Positions 6,735 through 37,473 of a stretch of 64,000 nucleotides of DNA are shown here, piece after piece. A program made the position numbers and the translations under genes. The notes under the pieces were generated by a model. It saw only the letters and a list, made by a program, of their open reading frames with translations, was not told the origin of the DNA and ran no database searches. The DNA comes from Hydrangea macrophylla (Eukaryota; Streptophyta; Magnoliopsida; Cornales; Hydrangeaceae), in the NCBI GenBank assembly GCA_033977485.1, contig CM066994.1, positions 12,092,001 through 12,156,000 on the forward strand. The letters run 5' to 3'. The stretch's first letter is position 1; each line of letters begins with the position of its first letter.

Positions 6735-9629
6735 TGTGGATATCGCATTTTTCTTACCCAAAGCTTTTCAAAATCAATTTTTAAAAACAAATGAGTCGCC
6801 ACTTAATTTTTCAAGAAAAATTAAGAAACCATTTTGAAAGGAAACTGATCGTTTGCGAAACCAAAGATTAACTAGGTCCGGGGATTATGGAATGAGAGGG
6901 GAAGGAGCCCGTCGGACTAAAACACCCTCTCTCATCCTATCTTGCGATAGGCCTCTACTCAAAATCCTTTTAATCAAATTTATTAATCTAAGCATGCCCT
7001 CAACTAATATATATATATACATATACATCACAAAAGCATGTCCAAAGGGTGTAAAATTGCAATTAACAAAATACCATTCAAAAGCCACATAATCCAGGTA
7101 GCAAGCGATATGATATGCAATAGAGAACAAGTGAACTTACCCTGGATCCAGCAGCGATAGTAAACGTGCAATGCATGCGAACAAAAGAAAATCCTAAAAA
7201 AGAGTCTCTAATCACGTATACACATAAGGCAAATCTTAACTCTAAGGTGTCGCGCATAAGGTCAAAAATCAAATAAAATCAAGAAATTTAATAAACTAGA
7301 GAGGGATCGAGAAATCGTACCTTAATAGCGCTACAAAACACAGGGTTAGTCCACATAATATGCAAAATACGATGTTAGAAATAACAATCCTAAATTTCTA
7401 GCTTACATCTATCTAATGTAATTAAATCCAAAGCAAATAAGTCTTAATTATAAGTGTCAAACCATATGGATGAATATGTACATGGACAAGGATAAACTAT
7501 GAAATACTCTTAAACTTTGGATTCAAGCTCAACTAATCATTTTTAAAGCATGGTTTAAGCCCTAGGTCATAGAAAAGTCATTTGGACCACTATTTACAAA
7601 GTTGGTCAAATGTGTCATAAAACTCTGAAAATTGCAGAGAGCAGACCAGAACTTAAAAGAAATAAAAAGCATATCTCCCATGATTTGATCTTGGTGAATT
7701 TTGGACATGAGATGCCCCTTGAGTCTAGTTTCTAAATCAAAAAGAAAATCAAGGTTTCAACGGTCGGATCTCTGGGAAAAGGACAAACACCAGACACCAC
7801 TCAGAGATGTATAACTCTCTGTCCAGAGATTTTGTTTGATTTTTTAAAAATAGTAAAATAATCCGAAATGCTTCATTCTTTTTAGGGGGCTTTCCTAACA
7901 CATTAAATTACATGGAAAAATTTATTTTGGGTCACAAACACCTTTTTGAAGCTTTGATTTACTAATTTCAAAAACGTTTTACTGTTCTGAAACTATTCTG
8001 AGACTCTGGACAGATTGTAATTAACTCACAAAACCAACTTAAAACAAACTTAAAACAAAAATTACAGTGGTAGAACATTGTGTTATTGACACTTTCCCAT
8101 TGGTTTCACTTAATTCCAACGGTTAGATTTCGAACTAAAAATCTTTGATCAAAAACAGTTTGTGAGCTCACTGTTTTTATTGATCAAGTTCAATTTTTAT
8201 TTGGTAACCCCAACTATTAAACCATGAAGTTGGGTTAAACCAAACCACTTCTCCTACCATTTGATGGTCATTGGAGGCTAAAGACCTTCATATTTATTGA
8301 TTTCAAGTGAAGTATGAATTAACTTCATGAAATCTCAAAATGATGAATCTAAACCATAGAGATGAGTTTAGACCCAAAATACTTTCTCCTACCATTTGAT
8401 GGTCATTGGAGATGAAGACATGACTAAAACTCATGAGTTTTCAAGGAGTATAAGGAGATTCCATGAAACATCAAGCTAGAAGACTCAAACCATGGAAGGG
8501 GTTTGGATTCATCTATTTGCTTATAAAATAAAATGATGATCAAACTTTGACTTCCATGTAAAGCATAAGCTTACATGGGATTCAAAAGATCATATTTAAG
8601 AGATTTCAAGAGAGATGTTGAAGATCTCCAAGAGTCTCAAGAAGGAAGTATGAACAATAAAAGAAATGAAGCAAAGAAAAAACAAAATAGTTTGAGGATT
8701 CAAAAGAAAGAATGCAAATAAAACAACTTATGGTTAGAGGATCACCTCCAACTATCCTCAAAGTTTCTCTCCTTTGAAGATCTTCCAAGCTCTTCTCTCT
8801 AGTTCTCTAAACTCTCTCTTTTCTCTCCCAAAAATATGTTGGTGTAGGAGTAGTTCTCCCAAGTATTTTTTGGTGTTGTATCCCCCCCTCTCTTTTTGCA
8901 TTGTGTTTCTCAATGGAGATACCTCTTCTTAAATAGACAAAAATACCTAGGTAATTTCAGTAAATTCGGAGTAAAAGACAGGTGTAAATCTCTCATTTGG
9001 TGGTACAATGTGTACTTTCTGAAATTAGAAAGACTGCTGGCCAGCGCGGCAGTCTAGAAACTGTCGCGGCAGTCCGTGACTACCGTTGCGGCAGTTCATG
9101 ACTGCCGTCGCGGCACTACATGACTGCCGCACGGCATTCATTAACTGCCGCGGCAATTAATGGATTGCCGCGTTTTTGTCAGTCTTACTTTATCAGTTTT
9201 TTGTTCTTATTCGCATACGCATACGTATTGCACTGCAAAATACAGACTTTAAAAGTGAACGGCAGTCAGAAATTGTTGGCGGCACTTGGTGAATGCCGGA
9301 CCGGCACTCTCTGACTGCCGCGCGGCACTCAGTGAGCGCCGCGGCAGTCTGCCGTGTGCCGTTTTTTGTTGAACTTCCCTTTTTAGGTCTTTTCTTTCTT
9401 CTTTTTTTTCTTACAAAAACTTATTTTTTGAAGATCTTTTCCAAAATGGCGTTTTATACCTGAATTCTCCTAAATACCTGGTATTTTCTTCTTTCTGTGA
9501 AATTTTATCGCGTTTGGAGAACTTTTTGAAGAGCTTGGAATACTTCAAATCTTTCGGTCCTTATCATCATCGGACTTGGAGGTGACACTCTCCTAAATTC
9601 GACGTTAGGTCAAAATTGGGGTGTCTACA
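6735..9629 (-). repeat. LTR of the Ogre-like element (5' LTR on the minus strand)
   Basis: 2895 bp, TG...CA ends on the element strand, next to a primer site at its inner edge. A minus-strand TATA-like CTATTTAAG lies at about 8929-8938. Upstream of it, at 9041-9356, is an array of GC-rich palindromes. The rest is AT-rich. ACCATTTGATGGTCATTGGAG occurs twice (about 8257 and 8390). The outer flank at 9630 is ATACT; the matching left target duplication is outside the window. Confidence 0.8.
9041..9356 (-). promoter_or_regulatory. U3 array of ACTGCCGCGGCAGT palindromes in the Ogre-like LTR
   Basis: At least twelve sites match the palindrome ACTGCCGCGGCAGT on one or both arms. The half-site CGGCA starts at 9047, 9067, 9089, 9111, 9132, 9151, then after a gap 9260, 9280, 9302, 9323, 9342. 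Spacing is 19-22 bp, near two helical turns. It sits 110-420 bp upstream of the LTR TATA box, and its GC content stands out sharply from the AT-rich LTR. Confidence 0.8.
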
Positions 9630-9634
9630 ATACT

Positions 9635-11927
9635 CCTTATTACAAAACAATGATTTGAAATAGAATAACGAACAAGAAGAAACAGAATCAAACGTTCACC
9701 TATATTATGAGAAACAATCAAGTGCATGCAATGTACGAATCAATAGAGTTCCTCATAAGATTGCACGTGTGTGATATGGTAGTCAAATAAACACGCGCAT
9801 GTCATGAACATGGAATATAACTCGGATAACCATCCAACTATGCTTCGACTACGAATCTCACAATGTTAATTACACTCTCAAATGAAACACTCATAAACAG
9901 GTGTAATTTTTCTAATATATGCGAGTAAAGGAAATATATTTTCAAAACGAGAAATGCTCACATATGACTCGAAAAGGACGCATGATACGAAAGAATAGTA
10001 GTCTCATGGATAGGATGCAAATAATCAAGAAAAATTAATCATTACCATGTTTTAATCTCCCTCCCATCGTTTACATATCCAAACCATGTTTTCTAGGATC
10101 AGATAGGACTTTCCAAAGGTTGTAATGTGGCTCAGGCAATGAAAAGGATATACTAGGTAGGTAATCTCAGAATGGCATTGTAAGGCATGTTCGATTTCTT
10201 TCATTCTTCTTCTACAAACTTTCATCTTTTATTTCTCTTCATTCATTTTCATTCATTTTTCTTCTTTTCTTTCATTTTTTTCAACCTTCCTCTTCTTTAT
10301 TTTTTTCTTTTCCTTTTTCTTTTCTCGCTTCTCAAATGACTATGCATTGAATACCAAGCAACTACCCCAATAGCATCTTATTTTCTTCTTCTCAATCAAC
10401 ACATCGCCTTAATACTACTAAAAGTTGATCACTCTTCCAATGGTATACTCCAAGTTGATCAAGTTGGAGCTTTTACAGAGGATAATGGTGAACAAAGAAA
10501 AAGAGGCATTGTAACGGCTCAAAGGGCGAACTAAGGAAATTTTATCTTTTATCGGTCAACAGTAAACAAAGAGGGCCTAAAATCATGTCCTAAAGTCGTA
10601 TGGTTCTTCAATGTTTACAATGGAAGATTATTTAGCATGGTAACAAATATTTTAACTTGACTGTCAACCAAAACAAGAATAATGAGACTAAACAACAAGT
10701 AGATGCGCTATTTCAATGAAATTCGACAAACACAATGTATTTATAACCCTCTAAAAAGAAAAGATAGGCTCAAAAGCTCACTGGGCTTAGTCTCCACCAT
10801 GTGTTATCTAGAAATCCGAATCATATTATAGTTCACATCAGCCATGTATTCCAATGGCTACGTGCAGTGCATAGGTTTATGTGCAAATCTATGATATAAA
10901 ACTACGATTCAAACAATACATAACTTAAAACGTCACATCATAACTTCAGCAAATGTTTAATCACATCTTCTCTTATTTATCATTCTATAACAATCAAAGT
11001 TCTCTATCAAAAAGTATCAAATTGATATTGCAAAAACGTCGGTAACATCGAATTTTTTTTTAAAATTTTGCATAAAATAATATGTGCATACCCCCAAACC
11101 TAAACCTTTCATTGTCCCTAATGAAACAATAAAATGAAAGAACGTAGAGTATTGAAGGAAGGAACGATAGTACCTCGATCTTGACAAGCATAGAACAGGG
11201 AAACACAAGTGAATATGGCAATAAAGTTCCATGTTACATGTTACTACTAGATGAAAAGAAACTAACAAAAGAATATTAACAGTAAATGAAACCTAAATAT
11301 GGAATATAAATCGAAAAACTAAGCTAAATTAAACTAAACGAGCAAATGGAAAAGAAATAAAACGAAAAAGTATAAATGTAACAAGGAAAACAACGAACAC
11401 GAACTAAACTGAACCAAATAAACAAAAACAGAAAAGAAACACAAATAAAATAGGTAGGGGGAAGGATATAGAAAACAAAAGGGAAAAAACAGGAAAGTGG
11501 GGAAATCGCGCGAGCGGCCGTCGCGCGCGCGAATTCCCAATTTTTTTTTTTTAATCACTAAATCGCGCCAGCGAGGTTCCTCGCGCCCGCTAAAACAGGC
11601 ACGAGTAAATGCTGAGAGCTCATATAAGGAAAATGAAAGAAAAAAAACACTAAGGCACATTCTCGCGCCAGCGGGCCGCGCGAGCGACGTCTCGCGCGAG
11701 CGGGTCGCGCGCGCGAGAAGGGTTTTTCCCATTTTTTGGCTAAAATTATGTATATAATATTAAAATAAATTAATTCCAACCCCCAAACCTGTCCAGAATG
11801 TCCAAAACAGACTCAAACAGACTCAAAAACGATCAAAAATAAGAAAAACGAACGAAATAAAGCTTGGGTTGCCTCCCAAGAAGCGCTAACTTTTACGTCT
11901 TCAGCTAGACCGTTCTAGCTCAAGGCT
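9635..11927 (-). other. Non-coding 3' internal region of the gag-protease element
   Basis: AT-rich DNA with T-rich runs at 10200-10330. It holds the CCCCCAAACC phrases at about 11090 and 11780 and a cluster of CGCGCGAGCG palindromes (separate entry). Short ORFs here read through low-complexity Arg/Ser or Phe/Leu codons and are not proposed as genes. Confidence 0.5.
11506..11718. promoter_or_regulatory. Internal cluster of TCGCGCGAGCG palindromes
   Basis: Sites start at about 11506, 11521, 11563, 11581, 11663, 11676, 11692 and 11705. They come in pairs 13-18 bp apart. The same word forms an array in this element's LTR (16167-16255), so LTR and interior share one family-specific motif. The surrounding DNA is AT-rich. 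Confidence 0.75.
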
Positions 11928-14633
11928 TTACGGAGGCCGTAAATCGGACTGTGTACCCCTAAGGTTGTCAGGTAGAGCTCGATGGTAAGCAGAAATCACG
12001 TCGCTTTGAATTAGTTCGATTGACGGTTTGTCAGTATGTTCGAATCTATTTCTTACCTTCCGAGTAGATTCAGCATTAGGGTCCGAGGTATTAGGATTCA
12101 TCCAGTCATCATCCACTATATCTTTTTCGTTACTCACATTTATTGCTTTGTTAGGCTCAATATTCCGTCTTACCTCACCTTCCGCCTCACATAGGTAATC
12201 GTCATCTTTAAGAGGTTGATCCAAAGCATTAAAAACGTTTAATTTTAAGTTCATGTTCCCAAACGACACTTTCATTACCCCCGTCCTACAATTGACACGT
12301 GCGTTGGCCGTAGCTAAGAAAGGACGACCAAGAATAACAGGAGTGTATTTTCTTGCATCTAGCACCGGTTCGGTGTCAAGGACCATAAAATCAACGGGAT
12401 AGAAACATTGATCAACTTTTACTAGGACGTCTTCGACGATTCCTCTAGGTACTTTGACGGAACGATCCGCTAATTGAATAGTAGCGGCCGTAGGTTTAAG
12501 TTCACCTAATCCTAGTTGTTTGTAGACATGATAAGGTAAGAGGTTAACACTAGCTCCTAAGTCAAGGAGAGCCCGATGAATGATAGTGTCACCTATGACA
12601 CATGAAATCGTAGGCATACCTGGATCCTTGTACTTCGGAGGAGCGTGTTGAAAAACTGAACTTACTTTTTCCGTAAGGAAGACCTTTTTAGGAGTATGAC
12701 TGCGTTTTTTGCGCTTTTGTGTACAAAGGTCTTTAAGACATTTAGCGTAAGCGGGAATTTGTTTAATAGCATCGAGAAAAGGAATATTGATTTTAACTTG
12801 TTTAAATACCTCGAGTATATCTTCCATTTTTGACCCTTTATTGGGCAAATGTGACGGTCCCTCAATGTTTGGTGGATATGGCATTCTCGGAATATAATTC
12901 GTTGGGACCGATTCTTTTTCTTTCTTATTTTGGCTCACGTCCTCACCCCTCTCTTTATTAGAGTTGATGTTCACATTTATCACATTCTCAGTCTTATTAG
13001 GGGTTTCTATCACCTCCTCTCGTGTAGTCATCCTAGTTGAGACAGCGTTTACTTGTTCATTCGACCCCTTAACCTCATATTGTCCCTTAGGGTTTTGAAT
13101 TGTTTGACTGGGCAACGTCCCCTCGTTTCTACGACTCACTATAGTAGCTAGTTGTCCCATTTGGGATTCAAGCTTCGCAATGGATTGTGTATGAGAGTGC
13201 ACTATTTGTGCTTGTGCCTGTACTTGCGTTTCAATTTTATTAAGGGATGCCAACACCTTTTCCTCAAAAATGTTAACCCTTGGAGGATTCGAATTAGGAG
13301 GCGGGTGTTGGTATTGATTAGGTTGAAACTGAGGTCGATACGCATTAGGAAAATTAGTCGCCTCATTAGGATTATTATTATTATTTTTCCACGAGAAGTT
13401 AGGATGGTTTCTCCATGGCGCATCCGGATTATTAGTAGTCGAATTATAATTATTTCGTGGGTATTGTTGAATAGAGTTAATGTGTTGCTCCACGAATTCC
13501 GGAAATTGACTCGCCGATGGACATGCAAGTATCGAATGTGAAGGATCAGAACATAATGCACAAATTTCACGAGCGGGTGGGGCTGTCGTTTGGTTCATTG
13601 TTAAAAGTCGGTCAAGTTTGTTAGATAGTTCTTTTATTTCAATTGATTGACTTGACTCGAACTTTACCTCCCTCTTAGGTTGTAAATGATATCCCTCGGA
13701 ACGGACAGACACCGCTTGATGCATCGAATTCTCGCTTAACGTTTCAAAAATTTTCCAGGCCTCGTCGGCGCTTTTGTGTAGGAAAGTTCCCGCACAAACG
13801 GCATCGACGGTATTACGGACCGAAGGAATAAGTCCCTCGTAAAAGACCTGGACCAACTGCCACTTAGGAACCTGATGATGTGGACACGAACGTAATAATT
13901 CTTTAAATTTTTCCCACGTGTCGTAGAGTGATTCCCCATCTTGCATCACAAAGTTTGTTATTGATTTTCTTATCTGATTCGTACGCATAATAGGGAAAAA
14001 CTTTTGTAAAAATGCGGTGTGTAAGGCTTCCCATGTTCTAATTGTGTTTGGCTCCAAAGATTGAAGCCAATATTTAGCTTTATCTTTTAAAGAGAATGAA
14101 AAGAGCCGCAATTTTAATTCATCATCAGTTAAGTTTTGGATTTTCAAAGTAGAATATATATCTTGGAAATCTCCTAAGTGTTTATATGGATCTTCATTTA
14201 AACGGCCATGGAAAGATGGAAGTAGCGAGATGGTAGACGACTTTATCTCAAAGTGAGATGCCGTCGCCTCCGGTAAATCAATACATGTTTGTGGTGTGTA
14301 AGTCGTCGGAATAAAATAATCTTTAAGTGGAGGAGGTGGCGGTATATTAGGATTATTCAAATTATTTCCGTTGTTATTTTGGTTGTTTTCGTTATTATTT
14401 CCAATGTCTGCCATTTTAATTGGTTCTATGTTATTAAAGCGTGGTTTCTTTAGTCTTGTAAGAGTACTACGTATTTCGGACTCAAATAAAGACGTTGGTT
14501 TTGGTGTCAAATCGTCGTCTATTAAAAACTGTGTTCTAGAAGTTAAGTTGGAAGACTTGTTAAGTCTTAATGTACGTTCAAGTTCAGAGTCAAAAGGTTT
14601 TAATTCCGGTTCATTTGAACGTGTACCTAACAT
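11928..14633 (-). CDS. Gag-protease polyprotein of an Athila/TR-GAG-type retrotransposon
   Basis: An intact 901-codon ORF. Residues about 70-105 are Asn/Pro-rich. Residues 130-300 match the plant retrotransposon Gag core, with SLKDKAKYWLQSL and FLQKFFP. A CCHC knuckle (CALCSDPSHSILAC) lies at 358-371, and an Asn/Gln-rich stretch follows. A retroviral-type aspartic protease begins at about 689 with LLDLGASVNLLP, where Asp 691 should be catalytic; the later VILGRPFL is the second conserved element. DLGAS instead of DTGA is usual in this lineage. Gag would form the virus-like particle and the protease would process it. The frame stops after the protease with no RT, so mobility would need pol from another element. 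Start at ATG 14633, about 450 bp from the primer site. Confidence 0.85.
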   Translation of the reverse strand: MLGTRSNEPELKPFDSELERTLRLNKSSNLTSRTQFLIDDDLTPKPTSLFESEIRSTLTRLKKPRFNNIEPIKMADIGNNNENNQNNNGNNLNNPNIPPPPPLKDYFIPTTYTPQTCIDLPEATASHFEIKSSTISLLPSFHGRLNEDPYKHLGDFQDIYSTLKIQNLTDDELKLRLFSFSLKDKAKYWLQSLEPNTIRTWEALHTAFLQKFFPIMRTNQIRKSITNFVMQDGESLYDTWEKFKELLRSCPHHQVPKWQLVQVFYEGLIPSVRNTVDAVCAGTFLHKSADEAWKIFETLSENSMHQAVSVRSEGYHLQPKREVKFESSQSIEIKELSNKLDRLLTMNQTTAPPAREICALCSDPSHSILACPSASQFPEFVEQHINSIQQYPRNNYNSTTNNPDAPWRNHPNFSWKNNNNNPNEATNFPNAYRPQFQPNQYQHPPPNSNPPRVNIFEEKVLASLNKIETQVQAQAQIVHSHTQSIAKLESQMGQLATIVSRRNEGTLPSQTIQNPKGQYEVKGSNEQVNAVSTRMTTREEVIETPNKTENVINVNINSNKERGEDVSQNKKEKESVPTNYIPRMPYPPNIEGPSHLPNKGSKMEDILEVFKQVKINIPFLDAIKQIPAYAKCLKDLCTQKRKKRSHTPKKVFLTEKVSSVFQHAPPKYKDPGMPTISCVIGDTIIHRALLDLGASVNLLPYHVYKQLGLGELKPTAATIQLADRSVKVPRGIVEDVLVKVDQCFYPVDFMVLDTEPVLDARKYTPVILGRPFLATANARVNCRTGVMKVSFGNMNLKLNVFNALDQPLKDDDYLCEAEGEVRRNIEPNKAINVSNEKDIVDDDWMNPNTSDPNAESTRKVRNRFEHTDKPSIELIQSDVISAYHRALPDNLRGTQSDLRPP

Positions 14634-15085
14634 AAACTAAAAGAAAGTAAACTAGAAACAAAGACTGACTAAACTAAAAAAAAAACAAATAGCAATCATG
14701 CAACTAAGATAACAAGCACTCAACTACTGTGATGCATGAATATTATCCTGTAATGCAATGATCGCGTCAAGCCCAGCGCCCCGGGTTTCCTAGCTAATGC
14801 AGTGCAATTAACCCTAAACTAATGCAAATAGTGCGTCACAGCGCCCTAACTTACAATGGTTTAAAGCGAGTTTCACAAGAAGCAATTTATTTTATTTTAT
14901 TTATATTTTTATTTGCGTAAGCTCCTTTGATGTAATTAGCTGCTCCACTCGGAAACGTTGACTACAAAATAAAAGAACAAGTTAGTAACTAAAAACAAAA
15001 CGGAAAATAAGAAAAATAATAAAAACTAACCTAATATTTACAAATTAACTAAACTAATATTATAAAACTAAAGGTAGTAATGCAA
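14634..15085 (-). other. Leader between primer-binding site and gag-protease ORF
   Basis: AT-rich 5' untranslated region of the gag-protease element. No hairpin array or upstream gene was seen. A GCCCAGCGCCCCGGG patch lies at about 14770. Confidence 0.5.
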
Positions 15086-15103
15086 TCCCCGGCAACGGCG
15101 CCA
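15086..15103 (-). promoter_or_regulatory. Primer-binding site for tRNA-Asp
   Basis: On the minus strand this reads TGGCGCCGTTGCCGGGGA, the standard 18 nt complement of the 3' end of plant tRNA-Asp. It lies 8 bp inside the LTR edge at 15112. Its ordinary length contrasts with the 50 nt match in the neighbouring Ogre-like element. Confidence 0.9.
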
Positions 15104-15111
15104 GAAATTGA

Positions 15112-16430
15112 TGTTGTCAGTATCAAGATATAAAAGTATTCTTTACTTTTCAAAAGATTTGCAGTGTGGAAGTAAAGGTCGAACCCACAGAGATTGATTA
15201 ACTACCGTGTTTTAATCTTAAAACCTAAATCTAATTAATTATAAAAATGGATTTTGATTTGAATTTAATTAAACTAATAACAATGAAAATAAATCTAAAC
15301 TATGAAAGCAATTAAAATTGTTTTAAATAATGTTTAAGGGAACCTATGATTGCAAATCCACCACTAGCTTCATAATAGGAATATTTATGAATTACTTTAG
15401 CTTATTAAGTTGGATGATAATGGGGAATTGTGGCTACAAGCCCAATTCCTCCGACAAGTAGATATTCATGGTTCAAGCACCAACATAATCCATCTTCGGT
15501 TAGCACGAATTATCGCACACTAAACTAGGGTTGTGATCTAATCCGTCTAACCTAGGCGTGGACTATTCGGATACTTGATAGCACAAATCAATAAAGCACC
15601 ATCACATGTAAACAATCTAAACAAGCACAACAAGCATAGATCGTTGAGCACATCACAGTCAAAATAGATCTAAGACAAGAATAAATTCTGAAAGTAATGA
15701 TTTAATCACTAGAAGTTCGATTTATTTATAAAAATCCTCTAAACATGTGACTGTCATCCATACATAATAAAACTAAAATAAAAACATAAATAAAACCCTA
15801 TTACTCGGCTAGGGCTTCATTGAAACCCTAGATTTATGATCTAGCTGTCCATGGAAGTGATGGATGGCAAGTAGTTGATGGAGGAGGCCATGGAAACCCT
15901 TGGTCTTCTTCTTCTTCTTCTTGCTTCCCTCCCTTCAATGGCTGAAAGTATGGTTGTATATTGTGTGTATAATAGTTGCTAATAATGTCTCCCCCTTTAA
16001 TTATAATAAAATAGGGTATATATAGATTTACAACAAGTTTTGGAAGCCTTCCTAACCCGAAACGAACTGAAACTGATGTAATTTACAGTCTAGACGTCGT
16101 TCAGCAGTTTCGTTTGCACAGGAGTCTTCAGTATACTGAAATACGCCACTTTGATTTTTACACATATCGCGCGAGCGGGTCGCGCGAGCGCGACGTTTGG
16201 TACCTCACGCGCGCAGATCGCGCGAGCGATTTTCTGTTCTTCCGCGCGCGCGACTTGGCTTTTTCAGCTTCTTTCTTTATGCTTTTTCATCTTGTTTAGC
16301 CTGGTTTAGATGATTTCTTCCAAAACCTGTCAAAAACTAGAAAACGAAGTAAAAATATACAAAAACAAGATAAAAAGTACTAACAAATGTGAATTAAGGC
16401 GTATAATTAGGATTAATTCTCTCCCGATCA
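15112..16430 (-). repeat. LTR of the gag-protease element (5' LTR on the minus strand)
   Basis: About 1319 bp, bounded by TGTTGTCAG and CCCGATCA on the plus strand (TG...CA on both). A minus-strand TATA box (TCTATATATACCC) lies at about 16014-16025. An array of CGCGCGAGCG palindromes lies 140-235 bp upstream of it. The outer boundary at 16430 is chosen from the TG/CA rule and is less sure than the inner one. Confidence 0.7.
16167..16255 (-). promoter_or_regulatory. U3 array of CTCGCGCGAG-type palindromes
   Basis: Sites start at 16167, 16180, 16205, 16218 and 16241, giving spacings of 13, 25, 13 and 23 bp. Consensus TCGCGCGAGCG. It lies upstream of the minus-strand TATA box of this LTR. Confidence 0.75.
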
Positions 16431-16435
16431 GTTTG

Positions 16436-17265
16436 CTAAAAAAAGAAGTTGATGTGAAAGTTTATAAAGGAAAAAAAAACAGTGATAAAAAATCAAGGTC
16501 GTCACATCTGGATCGATCTGGCCTTCGTACGGATTGATCCACTTTTGTTCAAGAAATTTGGAATGCTCATTGTCAAAACTGGATCGATCTGCAACTGGAT
16601 CGATCTAGGTCCCAGGCAGATCGATCCGGACCTGCGAATTTAAAATTACAAGTTTGCCATTCTGAAATTCCTCACCTCATAACTTGCAAATAGTAGTGAG
16701 TGGACATCCCCCTTCACCTCAACAGCCCTAGGGACTTGTAGTAGGGCTAGCTTAGTGGTGAAGGAGCTCTATATGTATAAAGGTTTTGGAAAGGAACAAG
16801 CATCTCTTCTTTTATGTAGGTTATCATCTTCTTCTTTTGGTTTCCTAGTTTAATTTGGGTTTAAAACTCATTGTAAGAAATTATTGAATTATGTCACTGT
16901 AAAATGAAAGTAGTTATAGTTTATTGTTGGAATTTTCTTTGCTTACTTGTTTTAAGATTATTATCTTGAATATGTGTAGCTAAAACTCATCAGGTTGGGA
17001 AGCCATAGCTCAAACCTTAAATTCATGTTCTTCAGGAAAAGTTTTATGGTTAAAATCATTCTTAGAATTCTTGAACCTAAGTTGGATTCTAGGAGGAACT
17101 TCATTATTGATGTCTAGCATCAAGAATAGAAGGATTCTCAAAGAATTACATCTAGATTCATGAATCCTATTGAACCTTGGATCTAACATGTTAGTTGACT
17201 ACTACATGTTTGATTCTTTTCCTCAATAAGATTGTTATTCAAAAGAGTAATTAGAATACATCTGA
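16436..17265 (+). repeat. Left part of a plus-strand Athila-like LTR
   Basis: Holds GATCGATC palindromes (16511-16627) and then a TATA-like CTATATGTATAAAGG at about 16769. Next comes the phrase GTGTAGCTAAAACTCATCAGG, which recalls the mid-part of Athila-type LTRs. It is broken at 17265 by another LTR and appears to resume near 18740, ending before 19140. The left edge is not precisely known. Confidence 0.5.
16511..16627 (+). promoter_or_regulatory. Array of CTGGATCGATCTG palindromes
   Basis: GATCGATC-type sites start at 16511, 16532 (GATTGATC), 16582, 16598 and 16619, with spacings 21, 50, 16 and 21. They lie 140-260 bp upstream of the plus-strand TATA box. Confidence 0.7.
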
Positions 17266-18740
17266 TGTTGTCAAAATCAAGTATTTTTATTAACCCTATT
17301 AAAAATGTAGTATGTTGAAAATAGGGTATCGAGTCCATAGGGATTGATACAAGAACAACGTTTGGGAAGTTTAGAACTAATTATAATGCTAAAAGGAAGA
17401 AATAAGAAAAGATGATAAAAAAAGGAAAAATTGACTTTGCGTCTTTTGGGGTTTTTAGAGGATAAAAGGGAAAACTAATCTAAAAAGCAATAGTTTGTGA
17501 TCATTCCCCCTATCTTGGGTCACAACAAGATGAAATGGACTAATGTTTCATGCACACTCTAACATTTCATTGTGGCATATTATCAAACACAAGGAGTGCA
17601 TCTACGTGTTAGATAAAGGAGCTTTGAGATTTCCATAGAAACGGATTTGAAGCTAACGTTTGACTATCAAGGATGCATGACATACAAGATGAAGCCTTCA
17701 TGACTTCTAATCCAAATGATTTGTCCACCCTACACTAATTAATCTACTTGGTGGACAAATCGCCTATGAAGTCTTCAAAAGGTAGTATTTAAAACCCAAG
17801 AGTTTGAACAATCAAAGATACTTGACATCAAAGATGAAGACTTCAAGTTTTAAATCCCACACACAACAATTATCAAACACATGGAGCAAAACACAAGGCT
17901 GCATTATATTCCATATGAAAAACATAATGTAGGATTCAAAGTCTAAGTTTTGATAATCAAAGATGTAAGGCAAATAAGATGAAACATGTAGTTTTGAATC
18001 CTAAACAAATGAACCCTAGAAATGCTACAACATTAAATCCAAGAGTTCATGATCCACAACCTAAGTAAATCTGACTGCTAATAGAAAACATAGCAATATC
18101 ATCAAAGGAAAAGAGATAGAAGATGTGCCTAGCCATTAAAACTTCAATCCAAGTTTCAAGTTTACAATAATGAAGAAAAATGGAAGGGAACCCAAGGGGG
18201 TTCCAAAATGAGAGAAAAATGATAGATGAAATAAAAAGATAGCTAGTACAAAAACCCTATCACTTCCTATACTCAATGGAAAGCTTGTAAATAAAAAGAC
18301 GGAAAAAAACTATAGGAGCAGATTGAACCGCAGCAAACGGGTGGATCAATCCGATTTTCTTATATGTTCACAGAATGGCTATTCAGAATCCCAGATCGAT
18401 CCGTCCTTTGAGGCTAGATCGATCCGATATTAAAATTCTGGGCAATAGCTTCCTTCAAATGGGCAGATCGATCCGCGGTCTAAGGCCGAATCGATCCGCC
18501 TTTGCTGAAACTGAATCCTTCCCCTTTTTATGAGATAAAAATCAAACGGGATTGGTTCTCGCTTTGAACAAGTCCCCAATTCCTACAAGAAATATATTTT
18601 TATTAGCAACAGGTAAACAATAAACAAGATTAATAAAAGCACAGTTCATCCATTGAATCTCTTGGTTTAGGTGATAATTCGTGTCCAATAAAAGTAAAAT
18701 CATGAAGTCAAGAGTGCAATATTGAACACGAATCAATCTC
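17266..18740 (-). repeat. Minus-strand LTR inserted in the Athila-like LTR; right edge uncertain
   Basis: Starts with TGTTGTCAAAATCAAG, very like TGTTGTCAGTATCAAG at 15112, followed by a GAGTCCATAGGGATTGAT phrase that matches the inner end of gag-only LTRs. Palindromes GATCGATC(C) occur at 18321-18497. The right edge, near an inverted repeat at 18664-18740, shows no clear target duplication. No internal region is attached, so it may be a solo LTR. Confidence 0.5.
18321..18497 (-). promoter_or_regulatory. Array of CAGATCGATCCG palindromes spaced 23/50
   Basis: Six sites start at 18321, 18344, 18394, 18417, 18466 and 18489. Spacings are 23, 50, 23, 49, 23. The first two are degenerate (GATTGAAC, GATCAATC); the rest hold GATCGATC or AATCGATC. 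Confidence 0.75.
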
Positions 18741-19346: not shown

Positions 19347-19650
19347 GAGTAATTTGAACAAAGAACCCTTAAAGTGGGTCGGAAGAAGAGTGTGTGCATG
19401 GGTTTTGAGCTTATGAATTGTATGTTTCTCTTCCTTGATACTACTAAAAAAGTAAAAATGCACGTTTTTGTACACGATTGAACAACAATTCCTTGCCGAT
19501 TTTAGGATTTGTTTTTGGCTAAAACACCAATTAGTATCATTCAAACAAACACAAGTTGTAATACCCTGTACTTTGGAGTATATATTATTAAAAAGACTTC
19601 GTATTTATACATGTATAACCCTTACCTTTCATTTGGTAAAATTTGGTTAC

Positions 19651-19821
19651 CAATCGATTGCCTTGCATTCTTATCGATTGTCACTTTTTGCATACCAATC
19701 GATTGCCATCTTGCCGACATGAATTCATTACGTGGCATATACCAATCGATTTCCCTTGACTCACAATCGATTGCCATGAAATATCTGTAACTAATCGATT
19801 GCTTCTGCTTCCAATCGATTG
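19651..19821 (+). promoter_or_regulatory. U3 array of CCAATCGATTGG palindromes, seven sites
   Basis: Sites (position of CAATCG) lie at 19651, 19671, 19696, 19743, 19764, 19792 and 19812. Spacings are 20, 25, 47, 21, 28, 20. The 47 bp gap holds TTACGTGGC, a G-box/ABRE-like core at 19730-19735. The TATA box follows about 60 bp downstream. Confidence 0.85.
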
Positions 19822-20180
19822 ACATCTGCAGAGATAAGATTTCAACTTTGCTTCATGGGTTGACACATGGCACTTTGTTTTTCTATATATATATCAGCTC
19901 ATTTATTGTCTTGGGGCTAGTTTACACAAATTCTGGAGAAAAGAGACACACCATATATACATACACTCAACTATATATACATACAGATATATACACCACA
20001 AACACACACACACACTCACTACCTTGGTAGAAAAGAAGGAGAAGAAGAAAAAAGACATAAGCAGAGAAAAAGAGGAAGAGAAAGAGAAGAGAGACAAAGG
20101 AGAAGACAGGGAAAGAGAGAGAAGGAGGAAAGAGAAACTTGAGCTTCCTAAATCTCTACACACACCCAAACAAGCCTTAG

Positions 20181-20196
20181 GTGAGTCTTTACTCAC
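20181..20196 (+). promoter_or_regulatory. Splice donor inside a perfect hairpin
   Basis: CTTAG|GTGAGT is a strong plant 5' splice site. GTGAGT-CTTT-ACTCAC is a perfect 6 bp stem with a 4 nt loop. The chromovirus LTR has the same arrangement with a different loop (37187-37203). Confidence 0.6.
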
Positions 20197-20311
20197 TTGG
20201 TCTCTTTAATATACTCTTTCTACAAGTTTTGGTGATGTTTAGAGGTATTAAAAATGTCCATAAGACGTTTATATATTCTGTTTTACGAATCTGCTCAGGA
20301 AAATGAAGTAC

Positions 20312-20521
20312 CAATCAATTGGACTTTTCCTAATCGATTGACATCAGCTGAGTCCCAATCAATTGGATAGTTTCCCAATCGATCGTCATTAACTGTAGCC
20401 TAGTCAATTGCCAAAGTTATCAATCAATTGGCTTGTTTTTGGATCCAATAAATTATCATTTTCCTCAATCAATTATCATAGTTTTTATCCCAATCGATTG
20501 GACTCTTGTCCCAATCGATTG
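20312..20521 (+). promoter_or_regulatory. Downstream array of CCAATCGATTGG palindromes, ten sites spaced 20/25
   Basis: Sites lie at 20312, 20331, 20356, 20376, 20401, 20421, 20446, 20466, 20491 and 20512. Spacings are 19, 25, 20, 25, 20, 25, 20, 25, 21. Several are CAATCAATTG variants, and 20446 and 20466 are decayed. The linkers between sites are not alike, so this is not a simple tandem repeat. Confidence 0.88.
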
Positions 20522-20814
20522 GCAATTGTAGAACATGGTTAGTTCCTCTTGTTTATTATATAAAGGGTTCGATTGTTCGATTCTCGATTCGGACTTCCAT
20601 TATGCGATTATGGGTTGATCATGGATAATGTGACAACAAAGATAAGTATAATTAAGAATAATGGATTAACGTGATGATGTTAGATACTATGCGGTTCATG
20701 TATGAGTTTGATATCCATTCATTTTACTTAGAGTAGTTAGGCCGCAATGGGGGCTGTTGTGTAATCGTTAGTGGTATAACGATAAGTAAGTTTGCTAAGT
20801 TATGGGATGATTAC

Positions 20815-21185
20815 GGGAGAAACTATTTTCCAAACGCGGTAGACAAACGAAGGTGTCTATGACTTGAGGTGACTGGGTAAACAAGTATTCTAAAATGTGG
20901 TAGATGACCTCTATGACTTGCAATGTTATAAGGTAGAAGGTATCTACGACTTGCAGTGGCTGAGAATACGTAACTGACGATAAGTCGTGGTAATAGAATT
21001 GATGTATGGATGCTTGAAGCGTTAAATCCCTGACATGCGGTGGACTATGCATATGTTCTTAAAAGCGGAGGATGGACTGACGTATTATCGATGACTTGCG
21101 GTGTACGCGGTAGATGATCTCTATGACTTGCGGTGTTATGCGGTAGATGGTATTTATGACTTGCGGTGACGCGGTAGACAGAGCA
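20815..21185 (+). repeat. Repeats of GCGGTAGATGNTCTCTATGACTTGCGGTG in the solo LTR
   Basis: Five or more diverged copies of a GCGGTAGA...GACTTGCGGTG unit. The related chromovirus LTR has its own GCGG-type repeat (37840-38100) at the same place. GTTCTTAAAAGCGG occurs in both. Confidence 0.65.
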
Positions 21186-21386
21186 TTAGTGTATCCAGGA
21201 GTTTCTGTTCCAAGGGTTAATATGTGTTGAGCTTGTTATTAACAAGACGATAAGCGTTGAGTAACGACATTGGGATAATAAAGAGAAAAATATTATTGTA
21301 GCACTATATCATAGACATTTCCATAACTTGGTATTACGTTATATCATTGGTATCCTGTGAGTCTCTATTCACTCAACTCTCAGTAA

Positions 21387-21566
21387 GCTGACGGTCGTTA
21401 TTGCCTGGATATTCCCAGTCCAGATTACCTTATCCCTCTTAATACAGATAATGATGCCTACGACGATGGATACTACTCAGAAGAGGATTGTGTTGCGGGT
21501 GGCCCCACTAATGTCGATTATGCCAGGGAAGATTACTACGCTGATGACTACCCTTACGCCAACTAG
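21387..21566 (+). other. Conserved reading frame near the LTR end, 59 codons to TAG
   Basis: Starting after an in-frame TAA, it begins ADGRYCLDIPSPD and ends YYADDYPYAN. The chromovirus LTR has ADGLYCLDIPRPD...YADAYPYAS at the same place and also ends in a stop. There is no ATG near the start. It could be a spliced 3' exon, or the frame may survive by chance from shared DNA. Confidence 0.45.
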
Positions 21567-27835: not shown

Positions 27836-30642
27836 TCAATTCGGATTGCCCCATTGCTTATGACCCGGAATCCATTTGGGGCACTTCGGACTCATGTAAT
27901 TAGACACAACCCTTGAGTCCAAAAGCTCAACAATTGGTGCAAACTTAACGCACCGCGGTGTTTTATACTGATTGATCGATGCTCCTAAGCTAATCGCGTA
28001 GTCCATGAGCTTATCGAATGTCCCGGCCTCCACAATCTTTAACTCAAGTGGGCCGATTGACTTGTCTGAGGCTCGACCTTGTCGATACACACTGTTGAGC
28101 GATTCTTCGATTGTGAGACAACAGTCCTCGAAGACCGATGGTGGAATTGGGGTTGACCCTCTAATGCTAAGCTCCCAAAACAGGACATAGTGGCCTGGGA
28201 TTGTGGAAGTGTCCGCAAAGCTTGTGTACTCGATCAGAGTCGTGTCAAATGGCATTAAATGGTCCATAGCATTCTTGACCGCGTTTTGTAGCTCAACCTC
28301 ATCGGTCTTGTCCGAGTCAATGCTCAGAACAACATTCTTTCTACAAATGAAATTGAACTGTGGGGCCTTGTTCTTGAATCCGGCAACCCTCAGCACATCT
28401 CCAACTCTGTATCGATACAATCCTAAAAACCCAAATATAAATTAGAGATTTGGTAAAAGGAAAAAATAAAAAAAAACTCTCCTATTGAATACTTGAATTA
28501 TTTGAGTTTGAAGGTCTACCCTTTTTTTTAATTTTGGTCAAAGGTTGCTAATTAGTGAAACTTATTCAAAATCCAATCAAAATCCTTATGTTACAAAATT
28601 TCAACGAATTAGTGAAATTCTGTTATAAAAAATAAAATAATCAAATAAGTTTCTTTTGAGAGACATTTTAATACGACAAAAAAACGGGTAGGCCCTACAA
28701 CCAAAAATGTCTAGTTTATATATATAATCTCAAACTAAAATTCCTAAACAAAAATTAAGTATGTGGGTGTATTTATGTGTTGAGTGTAAATTTGGGAATT
28801 GAGTTTACCAGCATAGGTTGTGACAACAAGCTCGTATTCTTGGCCGATCTTGACATCGACCAGATCAACCAATTCTTGTTGTTCCTTCCCATTGAGCGAT
28901 TTGGGCACAGTGATTGAATTGGTGGACCCATTGTTTCGATGTAGCGGCAAGAACTCGAAATAGCCCATGCTTGGAATAAGGGTATAAGAGACCTCACTAG
29001 GCTTACAAAGAGGGTTAAGATTTACACCGAAATAGCACTCCGATGAGGCATACATAGTACAAACAAGAGGCAACCCATTGCTATAATAATCAAGAGTTGG
29101 TATATATTGTGACATAGTCCCAGTCACAATAACATCCACATACTTTGTATTAGGCCACAGTCTAGTTATAATCCCATGCCACGACTCTTTGCTACACTCG
29201 GTTTCGATAAAACCCGCGAGTTCCGGGTCGGGTTTGAGGATTTTCATGACCGATTCTCTCACCGACGGGTCGGTGATCTGCGGGTTAACGGATCCGGCTC
29301 GGATATCTTCACAAAGAAGGGTCCAGTGTTTTTCGAGGAACTGGATCGCCCGGATGAACCCGGAGGCGAAAACCGCCCCGACCCGGAGGACTTCCTTGTT
29401 TTGGCAAAGGCCACAGAGGATTTGGGAATACATGCTTTGGTATGAGTCAGGGCACAGAATGGTCTCATTTGGGCTAGTGTAGTTTGTGTATGGGTCATAA
29501 GGCCTGTCCATGAAATGGGCACTTTTGTAATAGCTAGTGAGGACAGGGCGTGCCACTAAACCACCAGGTGTCTTAGCCTCTGATTTTATGAACAAAAAGT
29601 ACATTCCTTTGCCTTTGTCTAAACCAGGTACAGATTGGTTCATCACTGGCATTAAAAGACTATAAAGCAATGATCTTCTCTCTAGCTCTTCTTCAATTGT
29701 TGGCATCAATTTTCTCTCTCCACCAGAGGTCCCAGAGCTACAAATTAAAAGTACACATTAATGTCAGTTTTGATAATTAATTATTTGAGATTACTGAAAA
29801 AAATTGAATTTATTTTGAGACCAACTTTTTACAGCCTTCTCAAAGAGCTACTCATTTCTTTTAAGAAGAAAAAAATTGAAAAATCTTTATAAAAAATGAA
29901 AAGTTACTAATTTTCACAACAATACCAAACATTAAACAGTTTTTTAAAAATATTAATAGTTTTCACAGAAATCTCTTGCTGACACGAGATCCCGAACAAT
30001 CTCTTAGGTCCTACTTGAAACAGTTTTTGGAGCTCACAAGTGATTATGAAGCTTAAAAAGTTAAAATAAAAATGTTTGACAAACCAACTATTGTTATTCG
30101 AACTCAAAAAAATACGATTCAATTGCAAAAATTTTGTGGTTGACCAATAGTTATATAGCCAGCTTTTGGCCAAATCCAATATTTTCAATGCAGAACAAAA
30201 GCTATTGCCAAAGGACCCATTGGTAACAGTATCTCAAAAGTCCAATAAAAAGACATCATATATATTATACATATACATATACATATACATATATATATAT
30301 ATATGCACATATATAAGAGAGAATATCGCACCTAGTTAAGAACTCTGAAATGGGTTGGGAGCAGAGGATTGGGGATTTATCGCCATTGGCGATTCGATTT
30401 ATATCGGGCTGTAAATCCTCATACGTAATGACGGGCATGAGTTTCTTGAAGTTATCGCGATTCGTTTGGCCATTGAGGCCATGTCGTTTTAAGTACTCCA
30501 CGTTTGCGTTTCGAGAGAGGATTTCAGCCAGAACGCGATTCTGAACCTCATCCGCGTTTGAGGTAACCTCCTCAATGAACTGAAGAACACTTTTGTTCTT
30601 CTCAGTGAGATTATAGTCTGTTGTCTTTGGAGCTTCAGGCAT
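27836..30642 (-). CDS. GH3: GH3 acyl-acid amido synthetase (auxin-conjugating, GH3.6/GH3.5-like), three exons
   Basis: Exons 30642-30332, 29737-28809 and 28422-27836 join to 608 codons plus stop, the usual GH3 length. Introns begin GTGCGA and GTAAAC and end TTTGTAG and TTTTTAG. GH3 enzymes activate a hormone acid with ATP to an acyl-adenylate and join it to an amino acid. Group II members such as Arabidopsis GH3.6 use indole-3-acetic acid and lower free auxin in the cytosol. The adenylate-binding motifs are all present: [10 protein letters not shown] (104-113, built across the exon 1-2 junction), [11 protein letters not shown] (333-343) and LYRYRVGDV (from 415). The C-terminal [13 protein letters not shown] is also typical. 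The protein looks intact, so the gene is probably functional. Subfamily comes from recalled likeness to GH3.6; the substrate is inferred. Confidence 0.95.
28423..28808 (-). other. GH3 intron 2
   Basis: 386 bp, GT...AG, AT-rich, phase 1. No insertion is evident. Confidence 0.9.
29738..30331 (-). other. GH3 intron 1, possibly holding a MITE
   Basis: 594 bp, GT...AG, phase 2. Between about 30005 and 30225 it has AGGTCCTACTTG on one side and CTATTGCCAAAGGACCC on the other, resembling the 'TTTGGCAATA' MITE ends at 24920-25215. An (AT)n tract lies at 30255-30305 near the donor. Confidence 0.75.
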
Positions 30643-32155: not shown

Positions 32156-32159
32156 TATA

Positions 32160-35475: not shown

Positions 35476-35790
35476 ATAGCAAGTTTAAGTTACCAACCAA
35501 AACCAGCAGACCAAGCTCAATGCTTGACAGTTGGTTTGACACATGAATTTAGGACTATGCACATTATAATATGCCAATATACTTTCGATTTTAAATACTT
35601 TGCATTATACATATATTATTTTTTTTAGGGATAATTATGACCAAATCCTTAATTAAAGCAAGCAAAAGTTTAAATGAGCTGTTTTTTTTAGAATTTGTTA
35701 AAAGTCCCTCTCACAAGCACGTGGCCAAACATTGCCCCAAACATTCCAGTCACTCACACCGTGTGAGTGGCTGTACAATAGCATTCCTCA

Positions 35791-36175
35791 ATTCAAAAAA
35801 TATTTGAAAACTTTAACCCTCCATAACTTTTGATCTACAACTCCATTTTTTACAAATTTTATACCGTTGTAATCGTGTCGACGAGAGTTACAAAACTAGT
35901 ACCATTGTTGATATGTTTTGAGCAAAAAAAAAAAAAAACTTACATGCCTTATGTAACTGAAAATTTTACAAAACTACTTTTGTGAAATTTCACAAAACTA
36001 TATATATTTTTGAATTTATTCAAATTGGAAAAAAAAAATTTACTCAAAACATATCAACAATGGTACTAGTTTTGTAGCTATCGTCGACACGATTCCAACG
36101 GTATAAAATTTGAGAAAAATGGAGTTGTATATCAAAAGTTATGGAGATTTAAAGTTGCAAAATATTTTTTGAATT
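35791..36175. repeat. Large inverted repeat, arms about 132 bp
   Basis: 35791-35922 is complementary to 36041-36175 with few mismatches. Landmarks are CATAACTTTTGATCTACAACTCC and its complement, TCGTGTCGACGA and TCGTCGACACGA, and GTACCATTGTTGATATG and its complement. The 120 bp centre is A/T-rich. A transcript would form a long double strand. Confidence 0.85.
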
Positions 36176-36241
36176 TAAAATATCATACGGTACAATTCTC
36201 ATACCATATGAGCGGCTGCAAAAGCATTGGACGTGAAAAGG

Positions 36242-36414
36242 GGTAATACTTGGGACACAACCTTCATACAACTTTCATACAACCTCCCCAAAAGATGTGT
36301 CTATCTCTTTCCTGTGTCACTGTGGGGTCCAGTGACATCACAGGAGAGAGATAGACACATCTTTTGGAGAGGTTGTATGAAAGTTGTATGAAAGTTGTGT
36401 CCCAAATATTACTC
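36242..36414. mobile_element. MITE family M2, copy a
   Basis: Inverted arms of about 67 bp run from GTAATACTTGGGACACAAC to AAAAGATGTGTCTATCTCT. The centre contains GTGTCACTGTGGGGTCC. The sister copy at 51217-51389 is nearly the same with the centre reversed. Confidence 0.85.
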
Positions 36415-36553
36415 CGTGAAAAGTTGGGCGGAAGTGGGGAAATGTGGAAAATGTTTGGGTGCATGTCAATTTTGTACTTTTGTCAAAGAACATGGACTTT
36501 TGATTAAATGCAAATATTGAAGGTACTTTTTGTTAAATATTTAGCTGACAAGT

Positions 36554-36558: not shown

Positions 36559-36639
36559 TGTAATACCCCGTATTTTTCAATAAATATTTAATGCAGAGAG
36601 ATTCTATATACTTCCTTTAACCATTCATGAAATTTCATC

Positions 36640-36823
36640 TTCGATCGATCGAAGCTAGTTCGAGCGATCGAGACCCTTCAGTTCAAGCGATCGAACCTTG
36701 TTCAATCGATCGAAACCCTACCGACCTGAATTTAATACGTGGTCCCTACTTCAATCGATCAAACCTTCTCAATCGATCAAACCTCCTGCGTTCGAGCGAT
36801 CGAACATACTTCGATCGATCGAA
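36640..36823 (+). promoter_or_regulatory. U3 array of TTCGATCGATCGAA palindromes, eight sites
   Basis: Sites start at 36640, 36659, 36682, 36701, 36750, 36768, 36791 and 36810: spacings 19, 23, 19, 49, 18, 23, 19. The 49 bp gap holds AATACGTGGTCC with ACGTGG at 36737-36742, as in the solo LTR. The copy in the 3' LTR is at 44968-45151. Confidence 0.9.
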
Positions 36824-36882
36824 CTTGTAATGATTTGATTTCCAGGTTTCACGCAAACAGGCCACCTGCACCCTCATTCCCC

Positions 36883-36891
36883 CTATATATA
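36883..36891 (+). promoter_or_regulatory. LTR TATA box
   Basis: CTATATATA in a CCCC...CCATG setting, 60 bp after the last palindrome. Transcription should start about 30 bp downstream, near 36920. Confidence 0.75.
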
Positions 36892-37186
36892 CCATGTGTT
36901 TGTGTGAGTTGGGGAGTTTACTGAACCTTGAGAGTTGAGAGTGTGTGCTTGTGTGTTGGTATACATATATATACACATACCTCCATATATCTATATATCT
37001 ACACACATATCTATATATATATACACTCAGCAGAGGAGAAGAAGAAGAACAGAAGAAGAAGAAGAAGAAGGAAAACAAGAGAGAGAAGGAGACAGAGAAA
37101 GAGAGAGACAGAGGCAGGCGAGAGAGAGAGGCCGCCATTAAAGCTTCGGAGCTAAAGCTTACCCAAACGCGCCCTTACGACTTTTG

Positions 37187-37203
37187 GTGAGTTCCAAACT
37201 CAC
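37187..37203 (+). promoter_or_regulatory. Splice donor inside a perfect hairpin
   Basis: TTTTG|GTGAGT is a strong 5' splice site. GTGAGT-TCCAA-ACTCAC gives a perfect 6 bp stem that hides it. It lies before the primer site, so any RNA spliced here would lose that site. The solo LTR has the same device at 20181-20196. Confidence 0.6.
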
Positions 37204-37310
37204 TCGGTATCTTAGTTATGATGTTTTACATATTCTGGACGTATAATTATAATCCAACCATCCCCTAGCACATTCTGCACGTTCACTGGCAGAATCTGTA
37301 GAAGACGAAG

Positions 37311-37473
37311 TTCGACCGATCGAACTGAGTTCGAGCGATCGAACATCACTGATCCCAATCGATCGAACTGAGTTCAATCGATCGAGACTACCTTCACTTC
37401 GATCGATCGAGAAGACTTCAATCGATCGAACAGCACTTTCTTCGAGCGATCGAGATGACCTCAATCGATCGAA
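37311..37473 (+). promoter_or_regulatory. Downstream array of TTCGATCGATCGAA palindromes, eight sites spaced 19/24
   Basis: Sites start at 37311, 37330, 37354, 37373, 37398, 37417, 37441 and 37460: spacings 19, 24, 19, 25, 19, 24, 19. Spacers within pairs are 5 nt (CTGAG, CTGAG, AAGAC, ATGAC); those between pairs are 10-11 nt and unrelated. The copy in the 3' LTR is at 45644-45806. Confidence 0.92.

Follow-up and report, generated by a model that had tools for sequence, protein, structure and literature searches.

Can long terminal repeats (LTRs) of different retrotransposon families share one regulatory layout while spelling it in different words? The question is raised by a stretch of 64,000 nucleotides from Hydrangea macrophylla (assembly GCA_033977485.1, contig CM066994.1, positions 12,092,001 to 12,156,000 of the forward strand), called the window below, within which all coordinates are counted. 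An earlier note on this DNA had described, in at least five LTR families with separate histories, clusters of CpG-rich palindromic words upstream of the TATA box. The arrays concerned are labelled E1 (Ogre type), E2 (gag-only, with CGCG words), E3 and E4 (both with GATCGATC), E5 (a solo LTR) and E6 (a chromovirus). The shared layout was confirmed, and in E5, E6 and their relatives it was found to be near-fixed, which goes beyond what had been claimed; the separate histories, however, failed for E5 and E6, which are homologous.

The claimed words and spacings were recovered in the LTRs of the window with counted units and distances. CpG palindromes of at least 8 bp numbered 93 in the window, against a mean of 38.3 and a maximum of 61 in 100 dinucleotide shuffles, and the densest 250 bp contained up to 8 of them, with never more than 4 in the shuffles. 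When the window was divided into 511 overlapping bins of 250 bp, at least five near-copies (one mismatch) of one CpG palindrome were present in 17 bins (0.05 expected), namely in 15 of the 100 bins inside LTRs versus 2 of the 411 outside, a split biased towards the LTR side, E3 and E4 having been delimited by their own arrays. The two bins outside LTRs correspond to an array after the E2 gag and to another at 4126. Non-CpG palindromes displayed no LTR excess (1/100 LTR bins versus 8/411 elsewhere), seven of the eight non-LTR bins being a satellite at 376-1126. Perfect palindromes alone were discarded as a search criterion, being swamped by AT microsatellites. With a word-free index of inverted 7-mer pairs, which drops some CG-only words, the values of E1, E3, both E5 arrays and both E6 arrays were reached by none of the 500 shuffles made per array, and that of E4 by one. 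The E1 array is absent from the 17 bins because it is too degenerate for the near-copy count, though it exceeds all 500 shuffles on the index. The two CGCG arrays of E2 were not above shuffles on the same index (234/500 and 484/500 reach it), and the index was also high in some bins without arrays (satellite, inverted repeats resembling miniature inverted-repeat transposable elements (MITEs), and other repeats). Consequently, the control against shuffled and non-LTR DNA was passed by the CpG words, but the palindromy of the CGCG arrays is not above base composition.

The clearest arrays are those of E5 and E6, both on the plus strand. The solo LTR E5 (19557-21851, target-site duplication (TSD) CAAGT) presents an upstream CAATCGATTG array of 7 units (19650-19822), a composite CCGAC...TACGTGG within this array (19714-19735), a TATA box (19884-19893) and a downstream CAATCGATTG array of 7 units (20311-20522). 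Its 14 units of CCAATCGATTGG (up to 3 mismatches) are spaced by 20/25/47/21/28/20, then 500, then 19/25/20/45/70/21 bp. The 5' LTR of E6 (36559-38765, TSD GATAT) follows the same order, with an upstream TTCGATCGATCGAA array of 8 units (36640-36823), the composite CCGAC...TACGTGG in the 49-bp gap of the array (36721-36742), a TATA box (36884-36891) 67 bp beyond the last unit's centre, a leader hairpin GGTGAGT...ACTCAC (37186-37203) and a downstream TTCGATCGATCGAA array of 8 units (37311-37473). The 16 near-copies of TTCGATCGATCGAA (up to 4 mismatches) are spaced by 19/23/19/49/18/23/19, then 501, then 19/24/19/25/19/24/19 bp. The 3' LTR of E6 (44887-47098) is 99% identical to the 5' LTR; its arrays, with limits transferred from the latter, span about 44968-45151 and 45644-45806.

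E6 encodes Pfam domains for a Ty3-type gag, reverse transcriptase, RNase H and an integrase with SH3_Tf2-1, followed by a weak Chromo match (17.9 bits versus a cut-off of 25.1, E 0.0031). An initiator-methionine (iMet) primer-binding site (PBS), the motif of which we presume to be that of Tekay/Del-type chromoviruses, is exact at 38773-38784, after the 5' LTR. No DNA-binding candidate beyond the gag and pol domains was detected in the four E6 frames given to Pfam, and a search of viral contigs gave no relatives of the second E6 pol frame. An extra open frame of about 350 residues, acidic and without Pfam match, lies between PBS and gag (38890-39942). The last ~480 bp of E5 and E6 are 72% identical, both LTRs have the same start, and their TATA regions and leaders can be aligned, which makes them one lineage. 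The hairpin GGTGAGT-loop-ACTCAC (20180-20196 in E5, 37186-37203 in E6) contains a splice-donor-like sequence; its strict pattern was matched by 24 of 50 LTRs (48 sampled loci, E5 and E6), and it occurs in leaders of chromovirus-type LTRs both with and without arrays. The position upstream of the TATA box applies to the first rows, but the second row of E5 and E6 lies about 500 bp downstream, past both the TATA box and the hairpin.

Relatives were sought in the window's own genome (2.22 Gb in 19 contigs), to which all genome-wide counts refer. A pattern of LTR end plus iMet PBS gave 9,413 matches, with 0 for the reversed control, and 48 of these junctions, all from the start of one contig, were sampled (loci 1-40 of 100 listed junctions with 3 kb upstream, the next 8 with 2.5 kb). 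An array was called when at least four exact copies of one word occurred within 260 bp, and each array is presumed to lie inside the chromovirus LTR of its locus. Arrays were found in 27/48 loci, 15 with AATCGATT, 6 with TCGATCGA and 6 with CGCG words, one of the latter (L042) being set aside as part of a flanking Athila-type LTR, which leaves 26 loci with arrays of their own. Locus L081, with three CGCG words, did not reach the four-copy cut, and neither did L059 or L076. On the inverted-pair index, 31 of the 50 LTRs scored higher than any of 200 block-shuffled LTRs, although some of their peaks are not word arrays. Two CAATCGATTG words at a distance of 18-48 bp were matched at 127,926 places, against 1 in the reversed control, a number that suggests thousands of copies; the first 100 pairs listed, many from related copies, take 9 of 31 possible spacings (19, 20, 21, 24, 25, 28, 44, 45 and 48). 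Four viral contigs (L083-L086) also contain two CAATCGATTG words 18-30 bp apart.

Two arrays were present in 16/48 loci, and these, together with E5 and E6, form a hand-picked set of 18 two-array LTRs. L051, L062, L068 and L071 were excluded, having two peaks and not two word arrays; one of the L062 peaks is an Ogre-type LTR. The top palindromic 8-mer, determined separately for each array, agreed between both rows in 18/18 two-array LTRs. In those with the A word (CAATCGATTG), TCGATCGA was seen only in the L066 flank, and in those with the T word (TTCGATCGATCGAA), AATCGATT was present as single copies near -580 only, outside the arrays (negative positions count from the LTR end). Locus L059 may read as mixed, since three CGCG words at -1491 are accompanied by T words (-2673 to -2576) that precede the LTR start (-2554). 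Eight two-array LTRs (L036, L037, L043, L047, L050, L058, L064 and L072) also bear a third cluster, at about -1086 to -661, of five near-copies of a non-CpG palindrome (TCTTAAGA, CTTATAAG or CTTTAAAG). Nested insertions were noticed at L062 and L072, where Ogre LTR sequence like that of E1 adjoins or lies within the locus (82% and 79% identical to the E1 U3, the part of the LTR upstream of its transcript).

The composite CCGAC...ACGTG, for which we assume the identities of dehydration-responsive element/C-repeat (DRE/CRT) core and abscisic acid (ABA)-responsive element (ABRE)/G-box core, occupies the gap of the upstream array within one mismatch in 14/18 two-array LTRs; L049, L058 and L060 have a different or more diverged version of it. 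Distances were compared in 16 of the 18, ten with the A word and six with the T word, L049 and L077 being omitted because their composite was not readable. With CCGAC as zero, unit centres were found at -13, +34 to +36 and +54 to +56 in 16/16 LTRs, at -55 to -59 in 15/16 and at -32 to -34 in 13/16 (-38 in the other three); in L058, L064 and L072 the first downstream unit matches loosely. The distance from the last unit centre to the first TATA-like site was 67-69 bp in 14/16 and 56 bp in 2/16. Between A-word and T-word LTRs, the 8- and 7-bp spacers are 40% and 20% identical (57-80% within groups); CCGAC is 97% and the ACGTG part 74% identical.

Words were also found to be kept better than the spacers between them. 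For the E6 family, 30 loci were sampled, of which 8 were dropped (LTR end not found) and 22 kept, including the two LTRs of the window. Pairwise differences were 0.047 for the words, 0.038 for their CGATCGAA core and 0.096 for spacers of the same array. Three clades gave word and spacer values of 0.056/0.121, 0.070/0.161 and 0.124/0.275, differences reached by 31, 29 and 3 of 2000 circular shifts, respectively; their last 500 bp differed by 0.073, 0.051 and 0.171.

Taken together, these patterns make it probable that the E5/E6-type arrays form a rigid multi-site enhancer, recognised by a host factor and residing in a block that moves between families. Each array would be a row of sites for a sequence-specific DNA-binding factor, most likely the host's. 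The upstream row, with 7 to 11 sites, would surround CCGAC...ACGTG, keep several sites at near-fixed distances and stop some 67 bp short of the TATA box. Another row of the same word follows about 500 bp further on in the leader, and both rows would jointly drive LTR transcription. Recombination between families carries the block, from U3 to the second row, from one LTR backbone to another, and the word may differ while the geometry stays. That a protein binds the words, that it belongs to the host and that its binding drives transcription is what we infer from the sequence; E1, E3 and the CGCG elements may be looser cases of the same kind. Among the three functional ideas of the earlier note, binding sites fit best, pairing of RNA or DNA is disfavoured by the lack of compensatory changes even though the arrays fold well, and a role of methylation is possible. 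As a tentative candidate reader, the GARP/type-B ARR group was considered, AATCGATT being an inverted GATT pair, but the units read CGATT versus the AGATT or GGATT reported as preferred in the available part of PMC11903765.

Several observations weigh against the enhancer reading. Related LTRs can do without such an array, since 21/48 sampled loci have none, and beyond +56 neither the number of units nor their position (+74 to +143) is constant. Nor do the 16 aligned LTRs count as independent cases, since they are relatives that exchange blocks and were selected for having a composite that could be read. Among the E6 copies, differences lower than those of the words as a whole were found in the 111 bp that precede the array (0.030), in U5 at the other end of the LTR (0.024) and in the stretch 37600-38290 (0.036), and in the second clade the last 500 bp also differ less than the words, so the contrast holds against the array spacers and not against the whole LTR. 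Moreover, words were defined on one reference sequence in both divergence tests, which somewhat favours them. The most repeated 8-mer of the LTR was palindromic in just 9/50, a test made uninformative by ties between near-neighbour words.

The rival explanations survive to different degrees. Selection for pairing, in which hairpins in LTR transcripts or cruciforms would feed small-RNA silencing as proposed for maize Sirevirus palindromes, could account for the folding of the arrays, which surpasses that of dinucleotide shuffles (z -1.8 to -11.4 in 11 arrays) and in 6/11 reaches -40 kcal/mol or lower within at most 110 nt, and in maize small RNAs map preferentially to Sirevirus palindromes, according to the parts available of PMC10760457 and PMC5311732. 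However, any palindromic word folds, and folding does not tell a selected structure from a by-product. Changes in the words were mostly one-sided, with 113 one-sided and 2 compensatory changes (1.9 expected) in 251 A units, and 149 one-sided and 3 compensatory changes (9.1 expected) in 92 T units. In addition, the T word varies most on its left side, its right half being for the most part almost invariant, and the flanks of the A word are directional. One-sided change and asymmetric read-out argue for protein-DNA recognition and against pairing, which moreover needs no fixed distance to the TATA box and is considered improbable.

About equally improbable is a CpG sensor, in which the words would act through their methylation state and the A/T difference may partly record methylation. 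In its favour, deamination of both outer CpGs turns TTCGATCGATCGAA into a sequence that contains CAATCGATTG, CpA has replaced the left outer CpG in 48/92 T units, and CpG observed/expected was 1.1-2.2 in 8/9 arrays. Nevertheless, this ratio was 0.73 in the downstream array of E5, the flanks of the words differ beyond CpG transitions, and the E6 clade with its T word stands among A-word LTRs on the U5 tree, the forks of which are weak, so that CpGs may have been gained. Still less credit is given to neutral growth of a tandem repeat, with slippage copying a unit of 20-25 bp and the palindrome accidental: the flanks of the A word are indeed partly common to the units (T at -3 in 204/251; A, C, A and T after the word in 126, 180, 178 and 164 of 251), but spacers diverge about twice as much as words, spacings favour 19-21 and 25 bp, and several positions are fixed relative to CCGAC and TATA. 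The least credible alternative is an element-encoded protein binding the words of its own LTR in the manner of VANC on VANDAL, each family with its own word, for although family-specific words in fast-evolving repeats resemble VANC targets (PMC5735166, available part) and E6 has its extra frame before gag, that frame is rich in acidic residues and lacks a Pfam match, and the same word recurs across several U5 groups that lie far apart, as well as in Tnd-1, a Ty1/copia element (ACAATCGATTGT).

If the enhancer reading is retained, the question is how the words change while the geometry stays. Near-identical 3' parts with different words were found for L057 (A) versus L052 and L060 (T), and for L068 and L071 (A) versus L054 (CGCG), identity between such LTRs stopping at about -1400 and -1000. 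Compared in bins of 100 bp, L057 and L044 were 63-85% alike in U3, and parts of the L060 block were 62-76% like E6, U3 figures that are inflated by the shared words; the 3' parts in these two comparisons were ~30-50% alike, with 78-79% in the last 100 bp. LTRs alike in U3 and unlike in their 3' parts, and the reverse, indicate that the block from U3 to the leader was exchanged. On a U5 tree of 50 LTRs, with many weak forks, at least 14 changes of array state are needed. Block exchange accounts for the spread of the words and for the agreement of both rows after a swap, but it leaves unexplained the first origin of a second word at the same positions. The A core and the T core differ by two symmetric CpG/TpG transitions, which may stem from methylation decay (T to A) or from CpGs having been regained (A to T). 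A further proposal, advanced tentatively and regarded as rather doubtful, is that the whole word set (~16 sites per LTR) may have been replaced together and in place, with five positions in the upstream row, CCGAC...ACGTG and the TATA distance kept to a few bases, the word being a lock refitted to another host factor, or to another methylation state of the site of the same factor, and the block then spreading by recombination. Since the rows of one two-array LTR agree and words are unmixed in them, it is the word that would be the changed lock.

Tnd-1 is a Ty1/copia element from tobacco relatives, and Tnt1, Retrolyc1 and Retrosol also belong to Ty1/copia. To our knowledge, rigid multi-site enhancers are rare in plants. 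The earlier note could not say whether such a design had been described; a close equivalent does exist, in the Ty1/copia Sireviruses, where Bousios et al. (2010; PMC2829016) reported palindromic repeated motifs (RM) above the TATA box that are absent from classic Ty1/copia elements. The Sirevirus RM comprise 8 to 32 palindromic copies per element in the upper LTR half, are family-specific and form CpG islands (PMC2829016). A clustered palindromic word shortly above the TATA box is common to both systems, and E6 (16 copies) and E5 (14 copies), at the mismatch levels given above, likewise have at least 8 copies of one palindromic word. Tnd-1, which departs from the Sirevirus CGG-CCG core, uses ACAATCGATTGT (PMC2829016), the same 10-bp core as E5, and this suggests convergence on a common plant factor. 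In contrast, the carriers here are Ty3/gypsy elements, as judged from the domains of E6 and E2, the core of E5 and E6 is ATCGAT (as in the Tnd-1 exception), and E5 and E6 have a second array in the leader and a near-fixed geometry around CCGAC...ACGTG. Sirevirus RM also have extra copies before the envelope gene (env), in the linker; the extra E2 array lies after gag, and neither env nor a 3' LTR was identified for E2.

Maize Sirevirus LTR palindromes have been linked to small RNAs (Bousios et al. 2016, as cited in PMC10760457 and PMC5311732), and maize Ty3 elements are generally without an obvious structure peak (PMC10760457). The likeness to those palindromes is a palindrome-rich, fast-evolving cis-region, and the difference is that a small-RNA link was reported there and sequence alone is considered here. 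Modular U3 evolution was described for Tnt1/Retrolyc1/Retrosol, with similar backbones and different U3 modules, but the accessible text describes no palindrome geometry (PMC1838419). Similarly, the LTR of tomato Rider, which responds to drought and ABA, contains DRE, ABRE-like and CGCG-box sites, the response having been measured in Rider and no palindrome arrays being described in the part available (PMC6762207). VANDAL/VANC shares a short family-specific motif multiplied in non-coding tandem repeats, but its binding protein is element-encoded and its motif YAGTATTAY is non-palindromic (PMC5735166). Among the matches listed on palindromic LTR motifs, no paper concerned Ty3/gypsy arrays, and a literature search by word sequence gave, as far as titles show, chance matches only among those listed. 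What appears new, as far as these listings show, is that Ty3/gypsy elements carry such arrays, that the row is double, that its geometry is near-fixed and that the word changes within this geometry; the design known from Sireviruses is thereby extended to Ty3/gypsy elements. Natural variants with the same positions, different words and different backbones are present, and they make a regulatory arms race between host and transposon directly testable through the identity of the reader factor, the role of spacing and a possible dependence of word changes on methylation decay.

The remaining arrays are looser. E1 is the 5' LTR of an element that we take to be of Ogre/Tat type, its LTR-start and PBS motifs being matched in the sequence (6732-9629, minus strand, start TGTAGACACCCC). 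Its Arg-type PBS lies at 6715-6731 with one mismatch, and the LTR between motif and PBS is ~2.9 kb long. The E1 array of TGCCGCGGCA type (9040-9348, minus strand) contains 6 units of ACTGCCGCGGCAGT within 4 mismatches, spaced by 191/40/22/22/20 bp. The exact 14-mer of the E1 word occurs at 225 genome places (reversed control 0), and 4/4 places fetched had 3-4 units and the same LTR start close by. E2, an Athila-type 5' LTR with approximate start (15104-16433, minus strand), is accompanied by a PBS at 15086-15103, presumably of Asp type, and a gag-protease frame (11931-14636) with a Retrotrans_gag and a weak Ty3_capsid match. Its LTR has a CGCG array (16166-16254, minus strand; spacing 28/13/25/13; TATA-like site at 16024), and a second CGCG array (11505-11717, minus strand) lies 3' of the gag-protease frame, in no identified LTR. 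The GGATCGATC arrays of E3 (16510-16627, plus strand; TATAAA at 16776) and E4 (18343-18497, minus strand) are spaced by 21/50/16/21 and 23/49/23/50 bp, and their LTR status was taken from the earlier reading of the sequence. The Athila assignment of E3 and E4 was not upheld, an Athila-type PBS and a Ty3-type gag-protease frame being found for E2 only. The distance of 60-150 bp above the TATA box, claimed for most families, is matched by LTRs of the E5/E6 type (67-69 bp in 14/16), but E4 has no TATA-like site in the expected stretch, and the TATA-like site of E1, 105 bp from its array, is TATTTAA at 8935. Words do differ between families, as claimed, but ATCGAT is the core common to AATCGATT, TTCGATCGATCGAA and GGATCGATC, and Athila-type E2 uses the same CGCG word as chromovirus-type loci.

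Elsewhere in the window, pieces of a GH3-family gene (PF03321; N-terminal, middle and C-terminal domains) are present at 27839-29757 on the minus strand, and a tandem satellite with periods of 60 and 61 bp extends over 200-1470. MITE-like inverted repeats were found at 35790-36415 and 51207-51389, the segments 36241-36414 and 51216-51389 being 95% alike.

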